Assembly (NCBI RefSeq): GCF_900519355.1
Contig: NZ_ULHE01000007.1
Location: forward strand, 1 to 64,000
DNA from: Corynebacterium lactis
GTDB taxonomy: Bacteria; Actinomycetota; Actinomycetes; Mycobacteriales; Mycobacteriaceae
Direction of reading: 5' to 3'
Length of the DNA stretch: 64,000 bases
In this document: positions 2,332 to 27,733 of the stretch, piece after piece
How positions within the stretch are numbered: position 1 is the first letter of the stretch
Layout of the letters: every line of letters begins with the position of its first letter
Translations under genes and position numbers: made by a program
Notes under the pieces: model-generated
Told to the model about the DNA's origin: nothing
The model's input: the letters and a program-made list of their open reading frames with translations, nothing else
Databases searched by the model: none

Positions 2332-3370
2332 GCAGATTCGTGGCCGGGGGACCGAGCCGTCGGCAAGCGCGGCGGCGACGGCGTCGTTTAGCGGGGAGCG
2401 GGCGGCGAGGCGCTACTGGGTGATACTCGCGGTGCTGGCGGTGCTCGCGGTGGGCTTCACGGCGGGGCTGCTCGCGTGGGGCAACCCGCTGCCGTTCGGG
2501 ACCGACGGGTTCTGGCTGATCGCGCGCAGGCGTGCCGACGCCATCATTGCGATGATGATCGTTGCGTGTGCCCAGGCGATCGCGACGGTTGCTTTCCAGT
2601 CGATTGCGAATAACCGCATCATTACGCCGTCGATTATGGGCTTCGAGGCACTATACGTGGCGATTAGTACCTCGGCGGTGTACTTCTTCGGCGTGACGGG
2701 GCTGGCGCAGGCGGGGTCGCTGGGAGCCTTCGTGTTCCAGTTGGCGCTGATGATCGGGCTGTCGCTGGTGCTCTACACGTGGCTGCTCACGGGTCGCGGG
2801 GCGGACATGCAAAGCATGCTGCTGGTCGGCATCGTGATCGGCGGCGGGCTGGCGTCGCTGTCGACGTTCATGCAGCGGCTGCTGACACCGTCGGAGTTTG
2901 ACCTGCTGACGGCGCGGCTGTTCGGTTCGGTCAACAATGCGGACCCGGAGTTCTTCCCGGTCGCGGTGCCGCTGGTGCTGGTGGCGGCCGGCGTAATCCT
3001 GGCGCGCTCGCGGGTGCTCAACGTGATGGCGCTGGGGCGCGAGGTGTCGACGGGACTCGGCGTGAACTACCAGCGCTCGTCGATCCTGATTCTGGTGTGC
3101 GTCGCGGTGCTGATGGCCGTGTCGACCGCGATGGTCGGCCCGATGACCTTCCTGGGCTTCCTGGTCGCGACGATTGCGTACCAGGCGGCCGATACGTTCG
3201 ACCATCGTTTCGTACTGCCGATGGCGGCGCTGATCGGCTACGTGACGCTCGCCGGCGCATATTTCGTGCTCAACCACGTCTTTTACACGCAGGGCGTGGT
3301 GTCCATCATCATCGAGCTGGTCGGCGGTTCGATTTTCCTCTACGTCGTGTTGAAGAAGGGACGGCTATGA
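2324..3370 (+). CDS. Iron-siderophore ABC transporter permease 2 (FecCD family)
   Basis: This is the second FecCD permease, 348 residues, beginning at a GTG that overlaps the end of the first by 8 bases, with GAGGAGG at 2313-2319 as ribosome site. After a variable Ser/Ala-rich N-terminus it has the expected series of membrane helices, the motif VGPMTFLGFLVATIAYQ near residues 265-281, and a hydrophobic C-terminus. It resembles the CeuC/FatC/YclO branch that pairs with the first permease. The N-terminal PSASAAA segment contains one copy of the GTCGGCAAGC word (2359-2368). It ends in an ATGA overlap with the ATPase gene. Confidence 0.85.
   Translation: MFRQIRGRGTEPSASAAATASFSGERAARRYWVILAVLAVLAVGFTAGLLAWGNPLPFGTDGFWLIARRRADAIIAMMIVACAQAIATVAFQSIANNRIITPSIMGFEALYVAISTSAVYFFGVTGLAQAGSLGAFVFQLALMIGLSLVLYTWLLTGRGADMQSMLLVGIVIGGGLASLSTFMQRLLTPSEFDLLTARLFGSVNNADPEFFPVAVPLVLVAAGVILARSRVLNVMALGREVSTGLGVNYQRSSILILVCVAVLMAVSTAMVGPMTFLGFLVATIAYQAADTFDHRFVLPMAALIGYVTLAGAYFVLNHVFYTQGVVSIIIELVGGSIFLYVVLKKGRL
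2359..2368 (+). repeat. Over-represented genomic word GTCGGCAAGC, first of 16 copies
   Basis: The exact 10-mer is found on the plus strand at 2359, 4912, 10343, 30552, 32867, 34021, 44840 and 49763, and as its complement GCTTGCCGAC at 4858, 12870, 28618, 30488, 37877, 45995, 49669 and 60165 (left-end coordinates). Fourteen of the sixteen extend to CGTCGGCAAGC. All but one are clearly inside genes, most often read as Ser-Ala-Ser (TCG GCA AGC) or Leu-Ala-Asp (CTT GCC GAC). None lies in the 13.8-25.9 kb island. The function is unknown. Confidence 0.8.
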
Positions 3371-17721: not shown

Positions 17722-20700
17722 ATGGCTACACCTTTTAGCTCTGAGGCCGAGTTCGAGAAGGCACTCATCGATATGCTCACCCGCCATGGTTGGGGTGAAG
17801 TAATCCACTGCCCAGATGAACAGCAACTCATTGACAACTGGGCAAAGATTCTCTTTGACAACAACCGCGGCCGCGACCAGCTAGGCGACATACCGCTCAC
17901 CGCGGGTGAGATGGCCCAAATCATCGAGCAAATCAACGAATTGCGCACACCATTAGCACTCAACGAGTTCATCAACGGGCGCACAGTCACCATCACCCGC
18001 GACGCACCGCAAGCCCACAACTTTGGCGTCGAAATCAGCCTAAAAATCTACGACCGCCTCGAAATCGCCGGCGGACAATCCCGCTACCAAATCGCAGTCC
18101 AACCACGCTTCAAAACCGCCGACGAGCTACTACCCGCCCGGCGTGGCGACGTCATGCTGCTCATCAACGGCATGCCCGTCTTCCACATCGAACTCAAACG
18201 CACCGGTGTACCCGTCTCACAAGCAGCAAACCAGATTGCCAAATACGCGCACGAGGGCGTGTACCAAGGGCTGTTTTCCCTCGTTCAGATCTTTGTAGCC
18301 ATGACGCCGGAAGAGTCGCAGTACTTTGCCAACCCCGGCACAGGAAAATTCAACCCTGACTACTTCTTCCACTGGGCCGACTTCAACAACGAGCCGATCA
18401 ATGAGTGGAACGAAGTTACCCGCAGGCTGCTATCCATCCCCATGGCACACCAGCTCATTGGCTTCTACACAGTTGCTGACCGGGCCTCCGGGAACCTGCT
18501 GGCAATGCGCTCGTACCAGTACTACGCGGCCTCACGCATTGCGGACCAAGTAGACCGCCACGACTGGGACAGCGGCGACCAACGCGGAGGCTACGTCTGG
18601 CACACAACAGGATCTGGAAAAACCATCACCAGCTTCAAAACTGCCCAACTGATTGCGGACTCTCACAATGCAGACAAAGTAGTGTTCCTGCTCGACCGCG
18701 TGGAACTAGGAACGCAGTCACTTGAAAACTACACAAGCTACGGTGGTGAAAGCCTCACGGTAGAGGACACCTCTAGCGCCGCTAACCTAGCCACCCTGCT
18801 CAAAGACAAACATTCCACCCTCATTGTGACCTCACTGCACAAGATGAGCCGAGTCAATACAGACACCCTCAAACTGGCAGACCTAGAACTTATCCGCGCC
18901 AAGCGGTGGTATTCATCATCGATGAAGCCCACCGCACCACCTTCGGTGACATGCTGGCAACCATCAAACGCACCCTGCCCAACGCTATGTTTTTCGGTTT
19001 CACCGGCACACCCATCCACGATGAAAACAAGAAGAAGGACTCCAACACAACCGACCTGTTCGGCAATGAGCTGCACCGCTATTCGATTGCCGACGGCATC
19101 CGCGACGGCAACGTCCTAGGCTTCGACACCGAAATGGTGGAGACCTTCAAAGCACACGATATTCGTAAGGTCGTAGCCCTCCACAAAGCCAAGGCCGAGA
19201 ACGAGATAGAAGCACTTTCTGATCCGAAAAAAGCTGCTGTTTACAACAAGTTCATGGACAAAGCCCAGATTCCTATGGCCTCTGTTTATGAGACCGACAG
19301 TGATGGCAACCTGAAGCGCGTCACCAAGGGCATTGAGGATTATCTGCCCACCTCGCAGTACAGTGGCAACGACCAAGAGGCCGAAAACAAGCACCATCAA
19401 GCTGTTGCCAGCGATATCAACGAGCACTGGATTCAGCTGAGCAGGAACAATATGTTCCACGCCATTCTGGCAACGTCCAGCATCCCTGAGGCCGTGGCAT
19501 ACTACCGAATTTTTAAGAAGAAGTACCCACACATCAAGGTCACAGCGCTGTTCGACCCCAATATCGACAACACTGGTGGTAAACAGCTCATCAAAGAAGA
19601 TGGCCTGCTCGAGATCCTGCGTGATTACAACGCCACCTACGGTCAGCACTACACCATGCCGACCCATGACGAGTTCAAAAAGGATGTGTCCAAGCGCCTA
19701 GCCCACAAGAAGCCATACAACACGAAGGCCATTCTTGACGACCACAGCCAGCACATCGACCTGCTCATCGTGGTCGACCAAATGCTTACTGGTTTTGATT
19801 CCAAGTGGCTCAGCACCTTGTACCTAGACAAGGTCATCGAATACGAGTCCATCATCCAGGCGTTTTCCCGCACCAACCGCATCTTTGGTCCAGAAAAACC
19901 CTTTGGGTCTATCCGCTACTACCGCAGGCCCTACACAATGCGCAGCAATATCGACCGGGCAGTCAAACTGTACTCCGGTGATAAGCCCTTCGGGCTGTTT
20001 GTTGATCATCTTGACCAGCGCCTCAGCAAAATTAACGAGTGCTTTGCCAACATCGCTGCGCTATTTACTAACCCTGATACAGGCCAGCCGGACTACTCAC
20101 AGCTGCCTGCTGTAGAAGCCGACCAAGGCGAGTTTGCCAAGAACTTCAACCAGCTCTACCGCGATCTACAAGCAGCCCAAGTCCAAGGCTTTAGCTGGGA
20201 CAACGACACCTATCACTTTGAGTCGCTACCGGAGCCTATTTCTGTAGCGCTGAGCGAGGACGTATTTACCACCCTGCTTACCCGTTACAAGGAAATCGGC
20301 AAAACTGATAAAGGCTCGAACCCAGACACAGGTGATGTGCCCTTCGACATTGACGTGCACATTACCCACATCGACACCGACCGCATCGACGCCGATTACC
20401 TCAACAGCAAGTTCGTTAAATACCTCAAGGCCCTCCAAGAGGGTGTGCAGCCGGAGGTGCTCGACGCGCTGCTGGAAGAGCTACACAACAGCTTCGCGCG
20501 CCTGAGTAAAGATGACCAGCGCTACGCTAACCGCTGGTTGCATGACCTCCAAGCCGGTGACCTAGTACCTGAGCCTGGTAAGACGGTGCACGATTACATT
20601 AATGATTATCGGATCACCGAGCGTGACCGCCAGTTGGATCGGCTGCATGAGCGCCTTGGAGTGGAGCCTGCGTTGCTGCGCAAGATTCTCGATGCGAAAG

Positions 20701-20918
20701 TGTCGGCAGCCACCATCAACGAGTACGGTCGCTTCGATGAGCTCACCACCTCAATCGACATCAACGTGGCTGCTAAGTACTTCACTCAAGTGATGGGGAA
20801 GCCGGTGTCCAAATTCAAGGTGCGCGCGATGGTAGACAAGCTTTTGCGCTCGTACATCATTGATTTCGTCTTGCCTGCTGACCTTATGGTGTCTGAGGAG
20901 GAATGGGCAGGTCTCTAG
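17722..20918 (+). CDS. hsdR: Type I restriction endonuclease subunit HsdR, frameshifted as read
   Basis: HsdR translocates DNA and cuts it when HsdM/HsdS find unmethylated sites. The first frame (17722-18905) holds the PD-(D/E)xK nuclease (Asp143 in RRGDVMLL, Glu157 and Lys159 in HIELKR) and helicase motif I HTTGSGKT (residues 294-301). It breaks near 18905 just before the DEAH box. The second frame continues VVFIIDEAHRTTFGDML and runs through the second helicase lobe (VDQMLTGFDSKWLSTLYLDK, QAFSRTNR) to 20918. One inserted base at AAGCGGTGG (for example AAGCCGGTGG) restores a full 1065-residue HsdR. AGGAGGAG at 17703-17710 is the ribosome site. Loss of restriction cannot be concluded until the base is checked. 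Confidence 0.88.
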
Positions 20919-21111
20919 ACATACAGATCGGGTAAGCGAGGGGCTGAAGTGCCCCGGTGTAGTTCCCTGATGAACTCCTCAAAGCCGCTCCAGTGTTCCG
21001 GTGGACACTTATGCCTCGTAGAGGGGGCGAAAGTATGCCCACGCACTTTCATGAATAGCCTTCATCGCAGATAGGATTAGCCGGTCTGTTTACACCAAAC
21101 CAGGATCTTTG

Positions 21112-22166
21112 ATGCGCACACTGAGCTTCTTCAACAACAAGGGCGGGGTGGGGAAGACCACCCTGTCCACCAACGTTGCCCACTACTTCGCCCGCCAGGG
21201 CAAGCGAGTCCTCTACGTCGATTGCGACCCGCAGTGCAACGCAACGCAGTTGATGCTGACGGATGATCAGCTTGAAGAGATTTATCTGGGAAGCGGTGAT
21301 GACGAGCGGGCGGAGCATGAGGCTCTCGCCAAGACCGTGTACGCAGTGTTCGTTCCGCTGCGTGAAGGGGAGACCTCGATTGGTGAGGACCTTCGCCCTA
21401 TACGATCGGAACGTTTCGGCGTGGATGTATTGCCCGGGCACCCTGCGCTGTCGAACATCGAAGACATCATGAGTGACGCATGGCAGTCGTCGTTAGCTAA
21501 GAAGACCGGAGATTTTCGGCGGATTCACTGGGCGGGACAGTTGGCGGTCGCGATGGAGGACGCTAATCGGTATGACTACATTTTCTTCGACGTCGGCCGT
21601 CGCTAGGCCCCTTTAACCGAACGGTGCTGCTCGGCTGCGACGCTTTCGTCACCCCGACCTCGACAGACCTATTTAGCTTCCACGCGTTCGGAAACCTGGC
21701 GAAGTGGTTCAACGAGTGGGTGACCGAGTACTCGGAGATTTCTGAGGGCAACCTTGCGCAGTGGCGCTCGTACTCCTCGGACATTTCATCGAAGACCCGC
21801 ACCCTGCGCCTGCTGGGCCACGAGGGGCGTGGCCTGCAGTATCTCGGATACACGACGCTCGAATACGTGAAGAAGAAGGCAAACGGGCAAGAACAATTGG
21901 TCGGCGCGTTCGAGCGTTTCCGCGGCAAGTTCGACCACGAGGCACAGCGCATTGGGGAGAGCCTGGGGCACTCCCGCGAGAAGTACCTGCTCGGGCATGT
22001 GCCGCACATGCACTCTATGCCGGCCACCGCGCAGGATGTGCATGCCCCAATCGCCGATTTGCAGTCAAAGGACGGTGTCCGCGGTACACAGCTCAATCAG
22101 CGCAAAGGATACGCGGACAAGATTGATCAGGTAGCGGCTTTGGTGCTGGAGCGTATGGAAGGCTAG
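21112..22166 (+). CDS. ParA/MinD-like P-loop ATPase of the defence island, frameshifted as read
   Basis: This ParA-family protein of about 350 residues has a deviant Walker A KGGVGKTT (residues 10-17), VDCDPQCNATQL as the switch I/A' region and YDYIFFDVG as Walker B. The frame breaks at about 21597 within the conserved DVGPSLG motif: it is read as GGCCGTCGCTAG, while GGCCCGTCGCTAG restores GPSLGPFNRTVLLGCDAFVTPTSTDLFSF and an open frame to 22166. There is no ParB gene and no obvious parS-like repeats nearby, so ordinary plasmid partition is unlikely. It ends 80 bases before the DUF262 gene, and I suspect the two work together. The ATG at 21112 is preferred over the TTG at 21109. Confidence 0.78.
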
Positions 22167-22246
22167 TTGGCTTCTCGGGCAGCCTTTTCGTGCAAAACCG
22201 ATACACTAAAACTTAATTTTGGAAACGGAACTGCAAAGGAGCCCTC

Positions 22247-24763
22247 GTGAAAGGCAATGTTGTCGATATCTACAAGGCATTTGACGGGGCAGACAAGAAA
22301 CTAGTTATTCCGGTCTACCAGCGAAATTATGACTGGACTGTCAAGCAGTGCGAGCGCCTTTTCGACGACATCGTCGACATGATTGAGCAGGGGCGGCCCA
22401 AGCACTTCTTCGGAGCCGTCGTTGGTGATCACGAAGACTCGTTTACCTGGGTGGTAATCGATGGCCAGCAGCGCATGACTACCGTCAGCTTGCTGATGTT
22501 GGCGCTGGTTCACGTCATCGAGGCCGGTGACATCGTAGAGTCCGGGGAAGAAGGTGACTCACGGGGCTCGTCTGGTTTGGCAAGAAAGCTCGTTAACAAC
22601 TACTTGACCATTGGCGAAGGCGACGAACAAAAGTTCAAGCTCAAGCCCGTTAAAGACGATGCCAATGCATATGCGAAGCTCTTTGGTCCGGAGTCTAGAT
22701 TCATTGAGGAATCCAAGATTACGGCCAACTATCGCTACTTCCGCCAGCGTTTGAAGAACTCGAAATTCACCGCCCAGACGCTGTGGGATAAAGGCATCTG
22801 TCAGCTAGAGGTCATGCTGCTTGACCTCGAGGATCACGACGACCCACAGCGTATCTTCGAATCTCTCAACTCCACAGGACTCGCGCTGAAGGAGTCGGAC
22901 AAGATTCGCAACTTGGTTCTCATGGGCCTCGCGCATAAGGAACAGAATCGTCTCTACGAGCAGTTTTGGAACCCGATGGAAATCAACGTCGAGTTCAAAA
23001 CTGACCATTTCGTTCGCTGGTATTTGGTCGCGCAGACTGCAAAGACACCAAAGCAGGGAGAAGTCTTCGACTTTTTCAAGCGCTTTATCTCTAAGAGCCC
23101 AGTGCCAGCGTCTCGCGTTGTCGAGGATATGTTTGCCTTCTCCGAAATTGAGAAGGAATTGAGTAAAGCGGCAACCGGGTATCGCGCAATTAATCGCCGA
23201 CTACGCCAGGCCAACTTGGTGCTAGGCGACGTCGTCAAGCCCTTCCTCTGGCTGACCTACCGAGATATGAAGAATGGTGAGATTACGCCAGACGACTTCA
23301 CTGAAATTGTCTCGATTATCGAGTCCTATGTTTTTCGCCGAGTTGTGTCGGCGGTTGCGGCAAACGCGCTCAACAAGATTTTCGCGAGCGCGTACGCAGA
23401 CCTCCGGAAGATGCGAAAGAACGGCGAGCCCTACTCAGAGATTTTGGCTTACATGCTCTCGGACCGCGGGCAAAGTGGCCGTTTCCCGTCTGACCGCGAG
23501 TTCGGCGAAGCTTTCCGTACCCGCGACTTTTATCGATTTAGGCCTGCATACAGGGCGTACACGTTCGACTGCCTCGAAATTGGTCATTCCAAGGATGTAA
23601 AGGACATCGCTGGGTACATCGCTAGCGGCGACCTAACTGTTGAGCACATCATGCCCCAAACGTTGAATCAGAAATGGAGGGAAGCGCTTGGGCCGCAGGC
23701 GAAGGAAATCCATGACGAGTGGGTAAATCGTATCGCGAATCTCACTATTACGGGATACAACTCGGAATACTCGAACCGGACGTTCCAGCAGAAGAAAGAA
23801 ATGGAAGGCGGATTCGGGGAGTCGCCCTACGGCTTAAACAACTTCGTCAAGAACCAGGAAAAATGGGGACTTGAGGAGCTCGAACAACGAGCAGATTTGC
23901 TGGTCAGCCGAGCCTTGAAGACATGGAAAATGTCCAAAGTCACCTTCGAACCGCCGACAACCGCCGTGCCGAGCATGCCACTGAGCGCGGAAACCAACTT
24001 CACCGGCGAGTCCGTGGTTGCGGTCGAACTTGAAGGAACCAAAACTGCGGTAAAGACATGGGGCGATGCGTTGGTCGCAGTTTTGAGCGAACTCCTGGCA
24101 TACGACCGCGAAGGCGTGCTCTCTATGATCGAAAAGGAGGAAGCGCTCCTTTTGTCTCAAGAGGATATGGCGAAGGCCGAAATAACCATAGACGAGTCAG
24201 GCGCGGCTACGGGCACCGCTGGAGGTTGGCGAAACTCCAGGATTATTGTCATCGACCCCGCACTCGGAGTGCGCGTGAACAACAGCACCTCGCAAAAGGT
24301 AGGACTAATGCGCCGAGTCTGCGATGGCCTTGACTACAGCACGGACGAAATTCTCTTTTATCTGCGCGGACACCGGAAAAATGAAGATTCTCCGAATTCG
24401 CTGAAGGCGCCCGCGGCTGAAGATTCTCCCGAGGAAACGGGACCGTACTCGGACTTGGTGGCCCTCAAACCTCTCGTTGATGAATTGGTTGGAAGCACGC
24501 TCACCGAGAACCAGACTGAAGAAGTCCGCACGAGTCTGATCGATCGGATGGAAGGGCATATGGTCGAGCAACCTCATGCTGTCCTCGGTGGGAAGAGCCT
24601 TGAAGTCTTGTTGAATGAACGCGTAGAAGGGGCTTTGACCTCCGACGAAGCTCTGGCTGGACTCTCGACCATTTTGATGATGTCGACGATGATGGGACCG
24701 AGCGTGATTCACAGCGCGTTGTTAAATGGACAAGTTTCACGTTTGCTGGGAGAGCTGGCCTGA
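22247..24763 (+). CDS. DUF262/DUF1524 (GmrSD-type) nuclease-like protein
   Basis: This 838-residue protein has the layout of GmrSD type IV restriction enzymes, which attack modified phage DNA. The N-terminal DUF262 domain carries the nucleotide-binding DGQQR motif at residues 72-76 (VVIDGQQRMTTVSLLMLAL) after VIPVYQRNYDW. The DUF1524 HNH-type domain carries EHIMPQTL (His467) and RIANLTITGYNSEYSNRTF (Asn near 498). A further C-terminal stretch of about 260 residues (after SMPLSAETNFTGES) contains no motif I can name. The start is a GTG with AAAGGAG at 22235-22241. The substrate (modified DNA or other) is inferred from the family only. Confidence 0.85.
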   Translation: MKGNVVDIYKAFDGADKKLVIPVYQRNYDWTVKQCERLFDDIVDMIEQGRPKHFFGAVVGDHEDSFTWVVIDGQQRMTTVSLLMLALVHVIEAGDIVESGEEGDSRGSSGLARKLVNNYLTIGEGDEQKFKLKPVKDDANAYAKLFGPESRFIEESKITANYRYFRQRLKNSKFTAQTLWDKGICQLEVMLLDLEDHDDPQRIFESLNSTGLALKESDKIRNLVLMGLAHKEQNRLYEQFWNPMEINVEFKTDHFVRWYLVAQTAKTPKQGEVFDFFKRFISKSPVPASRVVEDMFAFSEIEKELSKAATGYRAINRRLRQANLVLGDVVKPFLWLTYRDMKNGEITPDDFTEIVSIIESYVFRRVVSAVAANALNKIFASAYADLRKMRKNGEPYSEILAYMLSDRGQSGRFPSDREFGEAFRTRDFYRFRPAYRAYTFDCLEIGHSKDVKDIAGYIASGDLTVEHIMPQTLNQKWREALGPQAKEIHDEWVNRIANLTITGYNSEYSNRTFQQKKEMEGGFGESPYGLNNFVKNQEKWGLEELEQRADLLVSRALKTWKMSKVTFEPPTTAVPSMPLSAETNFTGESVVAVELEGTKTAVKTWGDALVAVLSELLAYDREGVLSMIEKEEALLLSQEDMAKAEITIDESGAATGTAGGWRNSRIIVIDPALGVRVNNSTSQKVGLMRRVCDGLDYSTDEILFYLRGHRKNEDSPNSLKAPAAEDSPEETGPYSDLVALKPLVDELVGSTLTENQTEEVRTSLIDRMEGHMVEQPHAVLGGKSLEVLLNERVEGALTSDEALAGLSTILMMSTMMGPSVIHSALLNGQVSRLLGELA

Positions 24764-24868: not shown

Positions 24869-25804
24869 TTAAGTGGGCTCACTTGTGGGGCGCCAAAGTA
24901 AATGCTCGCGCCAATTTTCCGGTGCTCCTGTCCTGGAAAATGGAACTAGCTCATTCCGTGGAAAGGACTCGAGCGTGTCTGGTAAAAGATTGCCAGGTGC
25001 CAGGTGGAGAGTCTTAAGAAGGTACTGAACAAGGCTTAGCTGACCAAATGCGCGACTAGTGGTTCCGCTAATTTCCATGAGCGACGGATGGCTGGGGAGT
25101 CTTGGGCGGAGATCATATGCGCGATTGAACATGCGGGCGTGGTGGGCTGAGTAGTTCCGCACTACATTCAGGGACTTGAGCCACGATTCCAATTGTGGAG
25201 CGCTGAGGTCGCAAAGTCGCGCAACCTCATTTCTAGCGCGATTTGGGCTCATCGCGTAGAGATGCGACAGCATCCCCCAATCCATGATTTCTACTGCGGC
25301 CCAGACCGGAAGAATTCCGTCGTAGCGCCGCTTATGGTGACGGACGAAATCTTCCTTAGTTGTGTTTAGAGCTCGCTCGTACTTCAGCTGCCACTTCGCA
25401 TAGGTAGTTAGTCCGGAATTGCGGTCAGTTTGATGTGCGCGGGCTCCCAGTAAATTAGGCTCCAAATGAACTGAGGGGCTTAATCTGCCGAGTGTATGGC
25501 CGATAGTTGTACGGACTGTGGTTTCGATTTTTCCGAGCTCGATAAAAGTGGCGTTTCGAAGCCGCTCGTCAAATTCGTATAGTCGTTTTACCAACTCAAA
25601 TGAAGTGCCATCTTGAAATTGGTCGAGTGCGGTATTGGTATTAACCTCAAATACGCGCATGGGGTACCAATAGCCCGAGAGTCTGTAGTAGTTGACTCGC
25701 GAGAGAAATTCAACAGCGGAGTCGCGGTCGCCAACGTGCATTCCCCTCTGCTCTAAGAGGGCGAGCTGCTCGTCGTAAGTCTTGAAAGGTTTAGTGTCAG
25801 CCAC
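24869..25804 (-). CDS. Abi_2 family (AbiD/AbiF-like) HEPN abortive-infection protein
   Basis: This 311-residue protein opens with the Abi_2 family pattern: KTYDEQLALLEQRGM, then FLSRVNYYRLSGYWYPMR, then FELVKRLYEFDERLRNATFIELGKIE. It carries a HEPN RNase motif R-x4-H (Arg216-Asn217 to His221 in VVRNYSAHHARMFNR). Abi_2 proteins stop phage spread by killing or stalling the infected cell, probably by RNA cleavage, and share ancestry with the HEPN domains of Cas13. The start is a GTG at 25804 with GGAG at 25810-25813. It faces the restriction genes and is preceded on its own strand by a structured, terminator-ended region. The real target is unknown. Confidence 0.82.
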   Translation of the reverse strand: MADTKPFKTYDEQLALLEQRGMHVGDRDSAVEFLSRVNYYRLSGYWYPMRVFEVNTNTALDQFQDGTSFELVKRLYEFDERLRNATFIELGKIETTVRTTIGHTLGRLSPSVHLEPNLLGARAHQTDRNSGLTTYAKWQLKYERALNTTKEDFVRHHKRRYDGILPVWAAVEIMDWGMLSHLYAMSPNRARNEVARLCDLSAPQLESWLKSLNVVRNYSAHHARMFNRAYDLRPRLPSHPSLMEISGTTSRAFGQLSLVQYLLKTLHLAPGNLLPDTLESFPRNELVPFSRTGAPENWREHLLWRPTSEPT

Positions 25805-25818
25805 TGTCGCTCCAAGTT

Positions 25819-25951
25819 GTTGACTTCAAAAACAAAGACCGGCCCTGGACTCCCGTTAGAACGGGCAGCGGAACCGGTCATGTTGGGGTCAACCTTAGCT
25901 TCGGTTGATGTCGACATCAACTTGTTGCGTAGTAGCTACACCCGGATGTAG
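25819..25951 (-). ncRNA. Candidate structured RNA upstream of the Abi_2 gene
   Basis: Read on the minus strand, about 130 bases before the Abi_2 gene contain a chain of helices. First is CTACA/TGTAG (25936-25951) with a 6-base loop. Next is a perfect 18-bp palindrome (25904-25921). Then comes a stem GTTGAC/GTCAAC (25888-25893 with 25819-25824) that encloses the terminator hairpin at 25837-25879 and its U-tract. No ORF fits. Abi_2 genes of the AbiF group are known to be accompanied by a conserved upstream RNA (the abiF RNA motif), and HEPN toxins can be held in check by RNA antitoxins. This region has that place and shape, but I have not shown that it matches the known motif. Confidence 0.5.
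25825..25879 (-). terminator. Terminator hairpin between the structured RNA and the Abi_2 gene
   Basis: On the minus strand GACCGG (25879-25874) pairs with CCGGTC (25842-25837), with inner helices CTG/CAG and CCCGT/ACGGG around a 4-base loop: about 14 bp in all. TTTGTTTTTG follows at once. The plus strand has no such T-tract, so the direction is clear. The Abi_2 GTG lies 20 bases further on, so the gene would be expressed only by read-through, as with type III RNA antitoxin loci. Confidence 0.75.
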
Positions 25952-26060
25952 GGCGTGTGGGGGAGCTCGATAGGCTGCTAAGCCACCTCTTAAGAACTCC
26001 CCAAATACGTAACCTCGCTCCACCATCGTGAAAAATTTCCGCGTTTTCCCACGTTTTGTA

Positions 26061-26090
26061 TTGCCACCGCACCCCGGCGCTTGTTATCCT
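26061..26090 (+). promoter_or_regulatory. pyrG promoter, probably leaderless
   Basis: TTGCCA (26061-26066) and TATCCT (26085-26090) are 18 bases apart. Transcription would begin about 7-9 bases after the -10, at or next to the pyrG GTG (26099). No Shine-Dalgarno sequence is visible, so a leaderless mRNA is likely. Confidence 0.5.
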
Positions 26091-26092
26091 GA

Positions 26093-27733
<1,641 letters not shown>

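Follow-up and report, generated by a model that had tools for sequence, protein, structure and literature searches.

The window, a stretch of 64,000 nucleotides from Corynebacterium lactis (contig NZ_ULHE01000007.1), carries on its minus strand a gene for an Abi_2 protein, immediately preceded by a short conserved hairpin with promoter-like and terminator-like signals on its two sides. The features of this locus are listed below.

24869-25804, minus strand: abiF/abiD-type toxin gene for an Abi_2 HEPN protein of 311 aa with a GTG start (open reading frame and profile matches)
25142-25159, minus strand: HEPN catalytic motif R216-N-Y-S-A-H221 (R-x4-H; R-N-x3-H), from alignment
25810-25813, minus strand: Shine-Dalgarno-like GGAG, 5 nt before the GTG, read from the sequence
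25827-25836, minus strand: T-rich tract TTTGTTTTTG, part of a putative terminator, directly 3' of the hairpin
25829-25885, minus strand: predicted small RNA of about 57 nt, from the positions of promoter and T-tract, its putative start being placed about 7 nt 3' of the -10 element
25837-25879, minus strand: conserved hairpin of 43 nt, proposed to be the RNA antitoxin (class A), from comparison with relatives and a match of covariance model R1
25892-25897, minus strand: -10 element TAAGGT, 12 nt 5' of the hairpin, from a TANNNT count over all classes
25904-25921, minus strand: 18-bp perfect palindrome GTTGATGTCGACATCAAC, found by eye, overlapping the putative -35
25915-25920, minus strand: putative -35 element TTGATG with a 17-nt spacer to the -10, read from the sequence with no statistical test

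Profile matches and a predicted structure show that the product of 24869-25804 is an AbiF/AbiD-type (Abi_2) HEPN protein whose catalytic motif is intact. Pfam PF07751 (Abi_2) matches the 311-aa protein over the entire profile (positions 1-184 of 184; E 2.2e-47; 162.2 bits against a cut-off of 25.6), the AbiD model of PADLOC matches it at 3.7e-63, and this gene is the single Abi_2 match in the whole 2.57 Mb source genome. The R-x4-H HEPN motif that an earlier note on this DNA had seen in the gene is indeed present as R216-N-Y-S-A-H221, with R216, N217 and H221 invariant in 50 aligned sequences including the window's own, and it aligns with the RNxxxH of 8vz6_A, the RNA-bound PbAbiF. Residues 5-305 of the toxin are matched to this chain by phmmer (E 3.2e-31), and Foldseek with an AlphaFold2 model of the toxin (pLDDT 96.4, computed from 50 sequences) returns 8vz6_A as the sole PDB match below 1e-3 (E 6.1e-15, TM 0.82). 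PbAbiF-AbiFr (PDB 8VZ6; Zilberzwige-Tal et al.) is homologous to the window toxin over nearly the full length and has the same fold, at 25% identity in the fold alignment. Changes of R202 and H207 in C. difficile AbiF have been reported to abolish toxicity (PMC12373285), and R210A+H215A likewise abolishes that of PbAbiF, as cited in the same paper. The window product is a probable growth-stopping, RNA-cutting protein.

The hairpin in front of this gene (25879-25837) forms 17 pairs (9+3+5) with internal irregularities, and the GGAG at 25813-25810 lies 13 nt 3' of the T-rich tract. The 14-bp hairpin followed by TTTGTTTTTG of the earlier note therefore stands as a strong same-strand hairpin with its tract, while the length of the stem has to be corrected. 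A folding energy of -51.1 kcal/mol is computed for the 142 nt upstream of the gene (z -3.3), and none of 200 shuffles is equally stable. The same note had placed this hairpin last in a run of three helices, and a functional RNA of such a kind, about 150 nt long, finds some support in the good folding of the whole 236-nt stretch (z -3.1). Even so, we give this longer structure the smallest chance of all the readings considered: the promoter lies in its upstream part, which shows no visible conservation in relatives. Of the other two helices, one at about 25952-25935 and one the palindrome at 25921-25904, no counterpart is visible by eye 5' of other hairpins, and the palindrome overlaps the putative -35 of the promoter. 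The three helices therefore do not form a single conserved RNA; only the last of them (25879-25837) is conserved. The palindrome was accordingly dropped as a part of the RNA; it might at most be an operator.

Because a promoter at a fixed distance and a T-rich tract flank the hairpin, the hairpin would make up nearly the whole transcript, and the RNA would itself be the terminator. The originally proposed plan of an RNA, then a terminator, then the toxin gene is not supported in that form, since a single hairpin of 43 nt seems to serve both as the RNA and as the terminator. The abiF conserved RNA motif that had been suspected here is also not found: over 25780-26100, neither Rfam's abiF model (RF03085) nor any other Rfam model reaches E<=10, while in phage phiC2, our positive control, RF03085 scores one motif at 37.6 bits and a second at 19.5 (gathering cut-off 37 bits). 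The window hairpin is therefore not the abiF motif as Rfam defines it. Comparison by eye suggests that RF03085 and class A are alike in their architecture upstream of an abiF gene and different in sequence. Our own covariance model R1, which has the window copy among its building sequences, matches 25829-25884 with E 3.5e-22. The claim that the toxin has an RNA partner is supported by a conserved, covarying hairpin immediately 5' of the gene and by the RNA-bound relative 8VZ6.

Relatives with 45-58% protein identity carry upstream of the gene GACCGGUUCCGC, a variable stem-loop and GYCCAGGGCCGGUC, in that order. The class A hairpin is thus made of a GACCGG/CCGGUC outer stem, a conserved UUCC...CCA region and a variable, covarying inner stem-loop; two copies have UA instead of UU. 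A fold with outer stem and inner stem-loop is predicted for all 33 distinct class A copies, and a complete hairpin accompanies 37 of the 38 intact toxins of the clade (open frame of at least 230 aa), the remaining one (L057, an intact clade member from a metagenome assembly) having its 3' half only. Covariation of the helices among homologues, on which the earlier note had made its proposal depend, is seen in the inner helix of this last hairpin, the outer helix being uninformative. In the inner helix of the 33 toxin-linked copies, both sides have changed in 16 cells against 5.5 after shuffling (0 of 500 shuffles as high), and 95.4% of cells are paired against at most 53.6% when the helix is slid. 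Two measures are weaker: six pairs show such two-sided changes, a number reached by 19 of 500 shuffles, and the further pair types are equalled in 46 of 500. In the outer helix, eight of nine pairs are invariant across these copies, hence no covariation support comes from there. Compensatory changes in this helix are seen outside the toxin-linked set: L089, a solitary copy, has GACCAG/CTGGTC, and L203, a phage copy, has GAACGG/CCGTTC. Because eight of the nine pairs never vary, it is suggested that the outer-helix sequence itself is read.

The flanking signals are conserved to different degrees. TANNNT ends 9-15 nt 5' of the hairpin in all 98 distinct hairpins of all classes (10-12 nt in 88), against a mean of 18.1 and a maximum of 34 in shuffles; this signal was first spotted by eye and then counted. 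At least six T occur in the 10 nt after the hairpin in 27 of the 39 class A copies at toxin loci and fewer than six in 12 (L048 and L050 are weak examples), the 39 including two copies 5' of broken toxin frames (L060, L061). Termination may be leaky or absent in some members, because their T-tract is weak.

A hairpin that lies between promoter and gene and is followed by a T-rich tract might merely be a cis attenuator or terminator that limits toxin expression and has no antitoxin role in trans. Such a plan of promoter, hairpin and gene is common among attenuator leaders. We consider it unlikely here, as the sequence is conserved beyond the needs of pairing, with eight outer pairs identical in 33 copies, whereas a terminator needs no such conservation; solitary and phage copies, discussed below, speak against it as well.

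The closest described system is AbiF-RCd22 of C. difficile phi027/phiC2 (PMC12373285), which likewise consists of an Abi_2 HEPN toxin with RNxxxH and an upstream RNA from its own promoter. As described there, the first motif begins at nucleotide 9 of the RNA and a terminator precedes the gene, a layout similar to that seen here; the transcript start, the start of the motif at nucleotide 9 and premature termination were determined experimentally (PMC12373285). RCd22 is reported to be made by premature termination and to neutralise AbiF by direct binding; the RNA of this relative acts in trans, which again argues against an attenuator (PMC12373285). In both RNAs, as judged by eye, the hairpin is small, and its outer stem leads through an asymmetric internal loop to a variable inner hairpin. 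However, RCd22 as published has two abiF motifs and a separate terminator, whereas the window has a single hairpin of different conserved sequence that RF03085 misses. For PbAbiF, one RNA per monomer has been described (PMC12737573). Two RNA models of Zilberzwige-Tal et al., AbiF5_iter3.CM and diverse_rna_xinsi.CM, are cited in PMC12804078; because one of them is named diverse_rna, part of the RNA diversity described below was probably already known to these authors.

The description of AbiF as the ancestor of Cas13 (PMC12737573) raises the further thought that the hairpin could be a guide or cofactor RNA, activating or directing the HEPN RNase as in Cas13 and not inhibiting it. We hold this to be very improbable. 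The hairpin has no spacer-like variable single-stranded stretch, its variable part being an inner stem-loop that covaries as a helix, and the AbiF systems described in the literature available to us use their RNA as an antitoxin.

The locus also resembles the type III systems ToxIN, CptIN and TenpIN in having an RNA upstream of an RNase gene. Toxins of these systems have a fold unrelated to AbiF-type HEPN proteins. Their RNA is a tandem repeat, whereas here there is a single hairpin, with one strict match within 500 nt at each locus having it; at L015 and L016, additional but degenerate copies occur upstream. The ratio of RNA to toxin in type III systems is described as being set by premature termination (PMC12373285).

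We think it highly probable that the locus is an AbiF-type toxin-antitoxin unit in which a hairpin RNA from its own promoter silences a HEPN RNase. Family, fold match, catalytic motif, hairpin conservation, inner-helix covariation, promoter signal, T-rich tract and toxin-RNA pairing were computed; from these features we infer transcription, termination, binding, neutralisation, toxicity and phage defence in the following scheme. A sigma-70-type promoter would start the small RNA about 6 nt before the 43-nt hairpin, and most polymerases would stop at the T-rich tract after it, giving a large excess of an RNA of about 57 nt, while occasional read-through past the hairpin would yield the toxin mRNA. 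The hairpin RNA would bind the dimeric HEPN RNase and block it, in a manner similar to type III systems. Loss or titration of the RNA, for example in phage infection, would free the RNase, which would then cut cellular RNA and stop growth. Most likely, the unit works as an RNA-controlled HEPN toxin, in the way shown for C. difficile AbiF and reported for PbAbiF. In terms of its sequence, the window unit is an AbiF RNA toxin-antitoxin unit of Actinobacteria with a compact hairpin class that Rfam misses.

Class A is one of about 17 RNA sequence classes, named by eye, that lie upstream of Abi_2 genes. An Abi_2 search of Corynebacterium gave a match in 99 of 201 genomes, and we read 108 loci: 87 from this genus search (18 of class A, 9 others from the search and 60 near-full-length ones) and 21 of 32 named loci. 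Excluded beforehand were the other 11 named loci, which are copies of loci already included, and three gene fragments (L019, L020 and L022). Of these, L019 is a class A gene truncated at its N-terminal end, and the strict pattern finds no hairpin there. A promoter-hairpin unit was found at 102 of the 108 loci, 97 by pattern and 5 by eye, the presence of a hairpin per class being a post hoc measure because the class patterns were written by eye. No hairpin was recognised at the other six (L024, L112, L117, L135 and L156 from the genus search and L057 among the 21 named loci). The classes of L101, L111, L114, L123 and L144 were assigned by eye before the tree and the promoter counts. RF03085 scores above its cut-off in none of 20 such loci scanned and gives two weaker matches, at L146 and L155.

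The RNA classes are for the most part distributed in line with the toxin tree. With 16 classes and 'none' as 17 labels on a maximum-likelihood tree of 104 proteins, 20 changes are required; the minimum is 16, and shuffled labels need 62.3 on average (0 of 200 shuffles as low as 20). Class J is split on this tree, and classes A, C and H are each interrupted by rows without hairpin. A shared phylogeny of RNA and toxin is no proof of co-evolution because neighbouring DNA travels together and linkage alone would lead one to expect it; what has to be explained is that the hairpins keep their sequence and the flanking DNA does not. L112 and L117, Abi_2 loci inside the class C clade of the tree, have by eye a -10-like stretch shortly before the ATG and no recognisable hairpin, and it is possible that they have lost the RNA. 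In three class B loci (L122, L130 and L131), a second promoter-like stretch is visible by eye between the hairpin and the toxin start, and because of it the toxin may have its own promoter there.

An unexpected gain of the search was a group of solitary and phage-borne copies. R1 has matches in 51 of the 201 Corynebacterium genomes and, in a sample of the phylum, in 7 of 396 genomes including the window's own, four of these seven reaching only 24-26 bits. Among the 50 matches in the genus with at least 44 bits, 19 adjoin an intact toxin, 8 a broken or displaced one, 2 (L167 and L169) lie beside an Abi_2 gene with a hairpin of its own, and 21 have no Abi_2 by tblastn in the surrounding 1.7-3.1 kb. 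All 19 intact class A toxins in the 201 genomes have the RNA. Solitary RNAs in these genomes, together with no intact class A toxin lacking the RNA, are what a toxin-antitoxin pair predicts; part of the surplus of toxin-less RNAs is, however, to be expected by chance alone, as the small RNA gene is disrupted far less readily than the toxin gene. Covariation is still seen in the 22 copies that have no toxin belonging to them (the 21 plus L167), with 19 cells against 4.7 and 94.4% paired, in an alignment that was fitted to the structure by the model and in which part of the variation may predate toxin loss. Solitary copies retain the hairpin, and those inspected mostly also a -10-like stretch; such copies without a toxin speak against a cis attenuator.

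The arrangement varies at two loci. At L094 (588-1546), a class A hairpin (56.9 bits) lies just downstream, not upstream, of an Abi_2 gene 29% identical to that of the window. At L169 (1452-3107), a class H Abi_2 gene and its hairpin occupy one strand and an intact class A unit the other, the latter preceded by two further, more divergent R1 matches of 45.7 and 38 bits.

Viruses, too, have copies without a toxin. Scanning IMG/VR by pattern yielded 16 stretches, of which 8 contain Abi_2 at least in part and 8 do not; two wider patterns combined with model scoring led to 13 toxin-less IMG/VR records, and Actinomyces phage LC001, the only convincing match of the RNA in BLASTN against phages, brings these to 14. 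The Abi_2 profile matches none of the 33 viral records examined, all 14 toxin-less ones among them, although the records may be fragments. BLASTN of the RNA against plasmids and a control pattern with a different outer stem found nothing. Eleven records from the third pattern (L195-L198, L200-L202, L204-L206 and L208) were set aside as chance matches, being below 24 bits with R1 or missed by it.

Four of the toxin-less viral records (L179, L193, L207 and LC001) have a host-like promoter. The other nine distinct copies, counted without L192, a near-copy of L189 at the locus, have TANNNT at the right place in none and a strong T-tract in two, and their hairpins are 32-39 nt long against 34-48 nt in host copies. 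In 5 of the 13 IMG/VR records (L184, L187, L194, L199 and L203), the hairpin lies at most 12 nt from a tRNA gene on the same strand and the promoter is absent. Random placement in the same pieces would give 0.025 such cases and reached five in 0 of 200,000 simulations, a figure to be taken as a rate and not as a blind test because the pieces were found through the hairpin. Nine copies without promoter, seven of them without a strong T-tract and five abutting tRNA genes, are hard to reconcile with a cis attenuator. The L187 hairpin lies between tRNA-Trp and tRNA-Asn. L203 has two different abiF-type hairpins on its minus strand (811-851 and 1319-1364), one by tRNA-Pro and one between two tRNA-Ser genes, and that next to tRNA-Pro is classical abiF-like, at 30.9 bits below the Rfam cut-off. 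Megablast of L203 against phages gives short matches, which among the matches listed (8 of 40) are all to tRNA genes, and megablast of L189 against phages gives nothing. L184 contains terminase genes, with a large subunit 61% identical to those of Rhodococcus phages. L189 encodes a cutinase-like protein, which would presumably fit a phage of mycolic-acid bacteria.

L207, a viral contig (65.8-kb record) with tail and head-closure genes, lines up three toxin-less hairpins, of class B, class E and class A, on its plus strand (2077-2423). Every one of them has its own -10 and a tract containing T; one pair of the outer stem is broken in the class A copy, and the Abi_2 profile finds nothing in the record. 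A convergent 215-aa open reading frame at 2470-3117 has an R-x4-H motif and no Pfam or PHROG match. Class B and class E patterns occur in viruses in L207 only. A pattern for the classical abiF core picks out 45 viral stretches; 27 of these have no Abi_2, and profile searches agree on all 27. Two of the 27 (L203 and L236) lie at most 60 nt from a tRNA gene and eight have a -10. Toxin-less viral copies are therefore not confined to class A, while placement beside tRNA genes is so far a class A pattern, because only 2 of the 27 classical copies are near a tRNA gene and the B and E patterns are found in L207 only.

We lean towards the view that phages carry such RNAs as decoys against AbiF-type toxins, in the form of the five tRNA-cluster mimics and of the L207 cassette, as in an arms race. 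A tRNA-cluster decoy would consist of the hairpin core, usually with a shorter inner loop and no promoter; tRNA processing would release it, and it would then silence the HEPN toxin of the host. L203 would then combine two mimic classes in one tRNA cluster, and L207 would encode three promoter-driven RNAs of three classes. Phage copies of a defence RNA that serve as mimics have been described in the pseudo-ToxI of phage phiTE (PMC3475682) and in the Racr RNA anti-CRISPRs (PMC10651486); those were demonstrated experimentally, whereas the viral hairpins here are known from sequence alone, resemble an AbiF-type RNA and in several cases lie in tRNA clusters. An abiF sRNA on the lytic cyanophage S-CREM1, an Rfam hit for the classical motif, is not presented as an antitoxin mimic in the account of PMC9964418. 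In the open-licence literature, no description of the class A hairpin or of AbiF-RNA mimics in tRNA clusters was found.

AbiF has been described as the likely ancestor of Cas13, and its RNA partner has been defined in the published work available to us mainly by one Rfam motif. The related Corynebacterium classes, pairing with separate toxin clades, offer material on how recognition between RNA and HEPN proteins diversifies, and the toxin-less copies in phage tRNA clusters are a direct test case for viral RNA mimicry. If the readings proposed here are true, about 17 toxin-RNA classes, nearly all within one genus, would point to an arms race of toxins, antitoxins and viral mimics at the level of RNA.

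The window unit has further defence genes nearby. A small defence island extends over 18906-24763 on the plus strand, beside the open reading frame 26099-27733, which we take to encode CTP synthase. Its genes include one for a type I restriction subunit, at 18906-20918, and one for a GmrSD/Orf5-like protein, at 22247-24763. A ParA-like ATPase gene beside them is apparently broken into two frames, the first at 21109-21606 and the second, recognised by eye, at 21624-22166.
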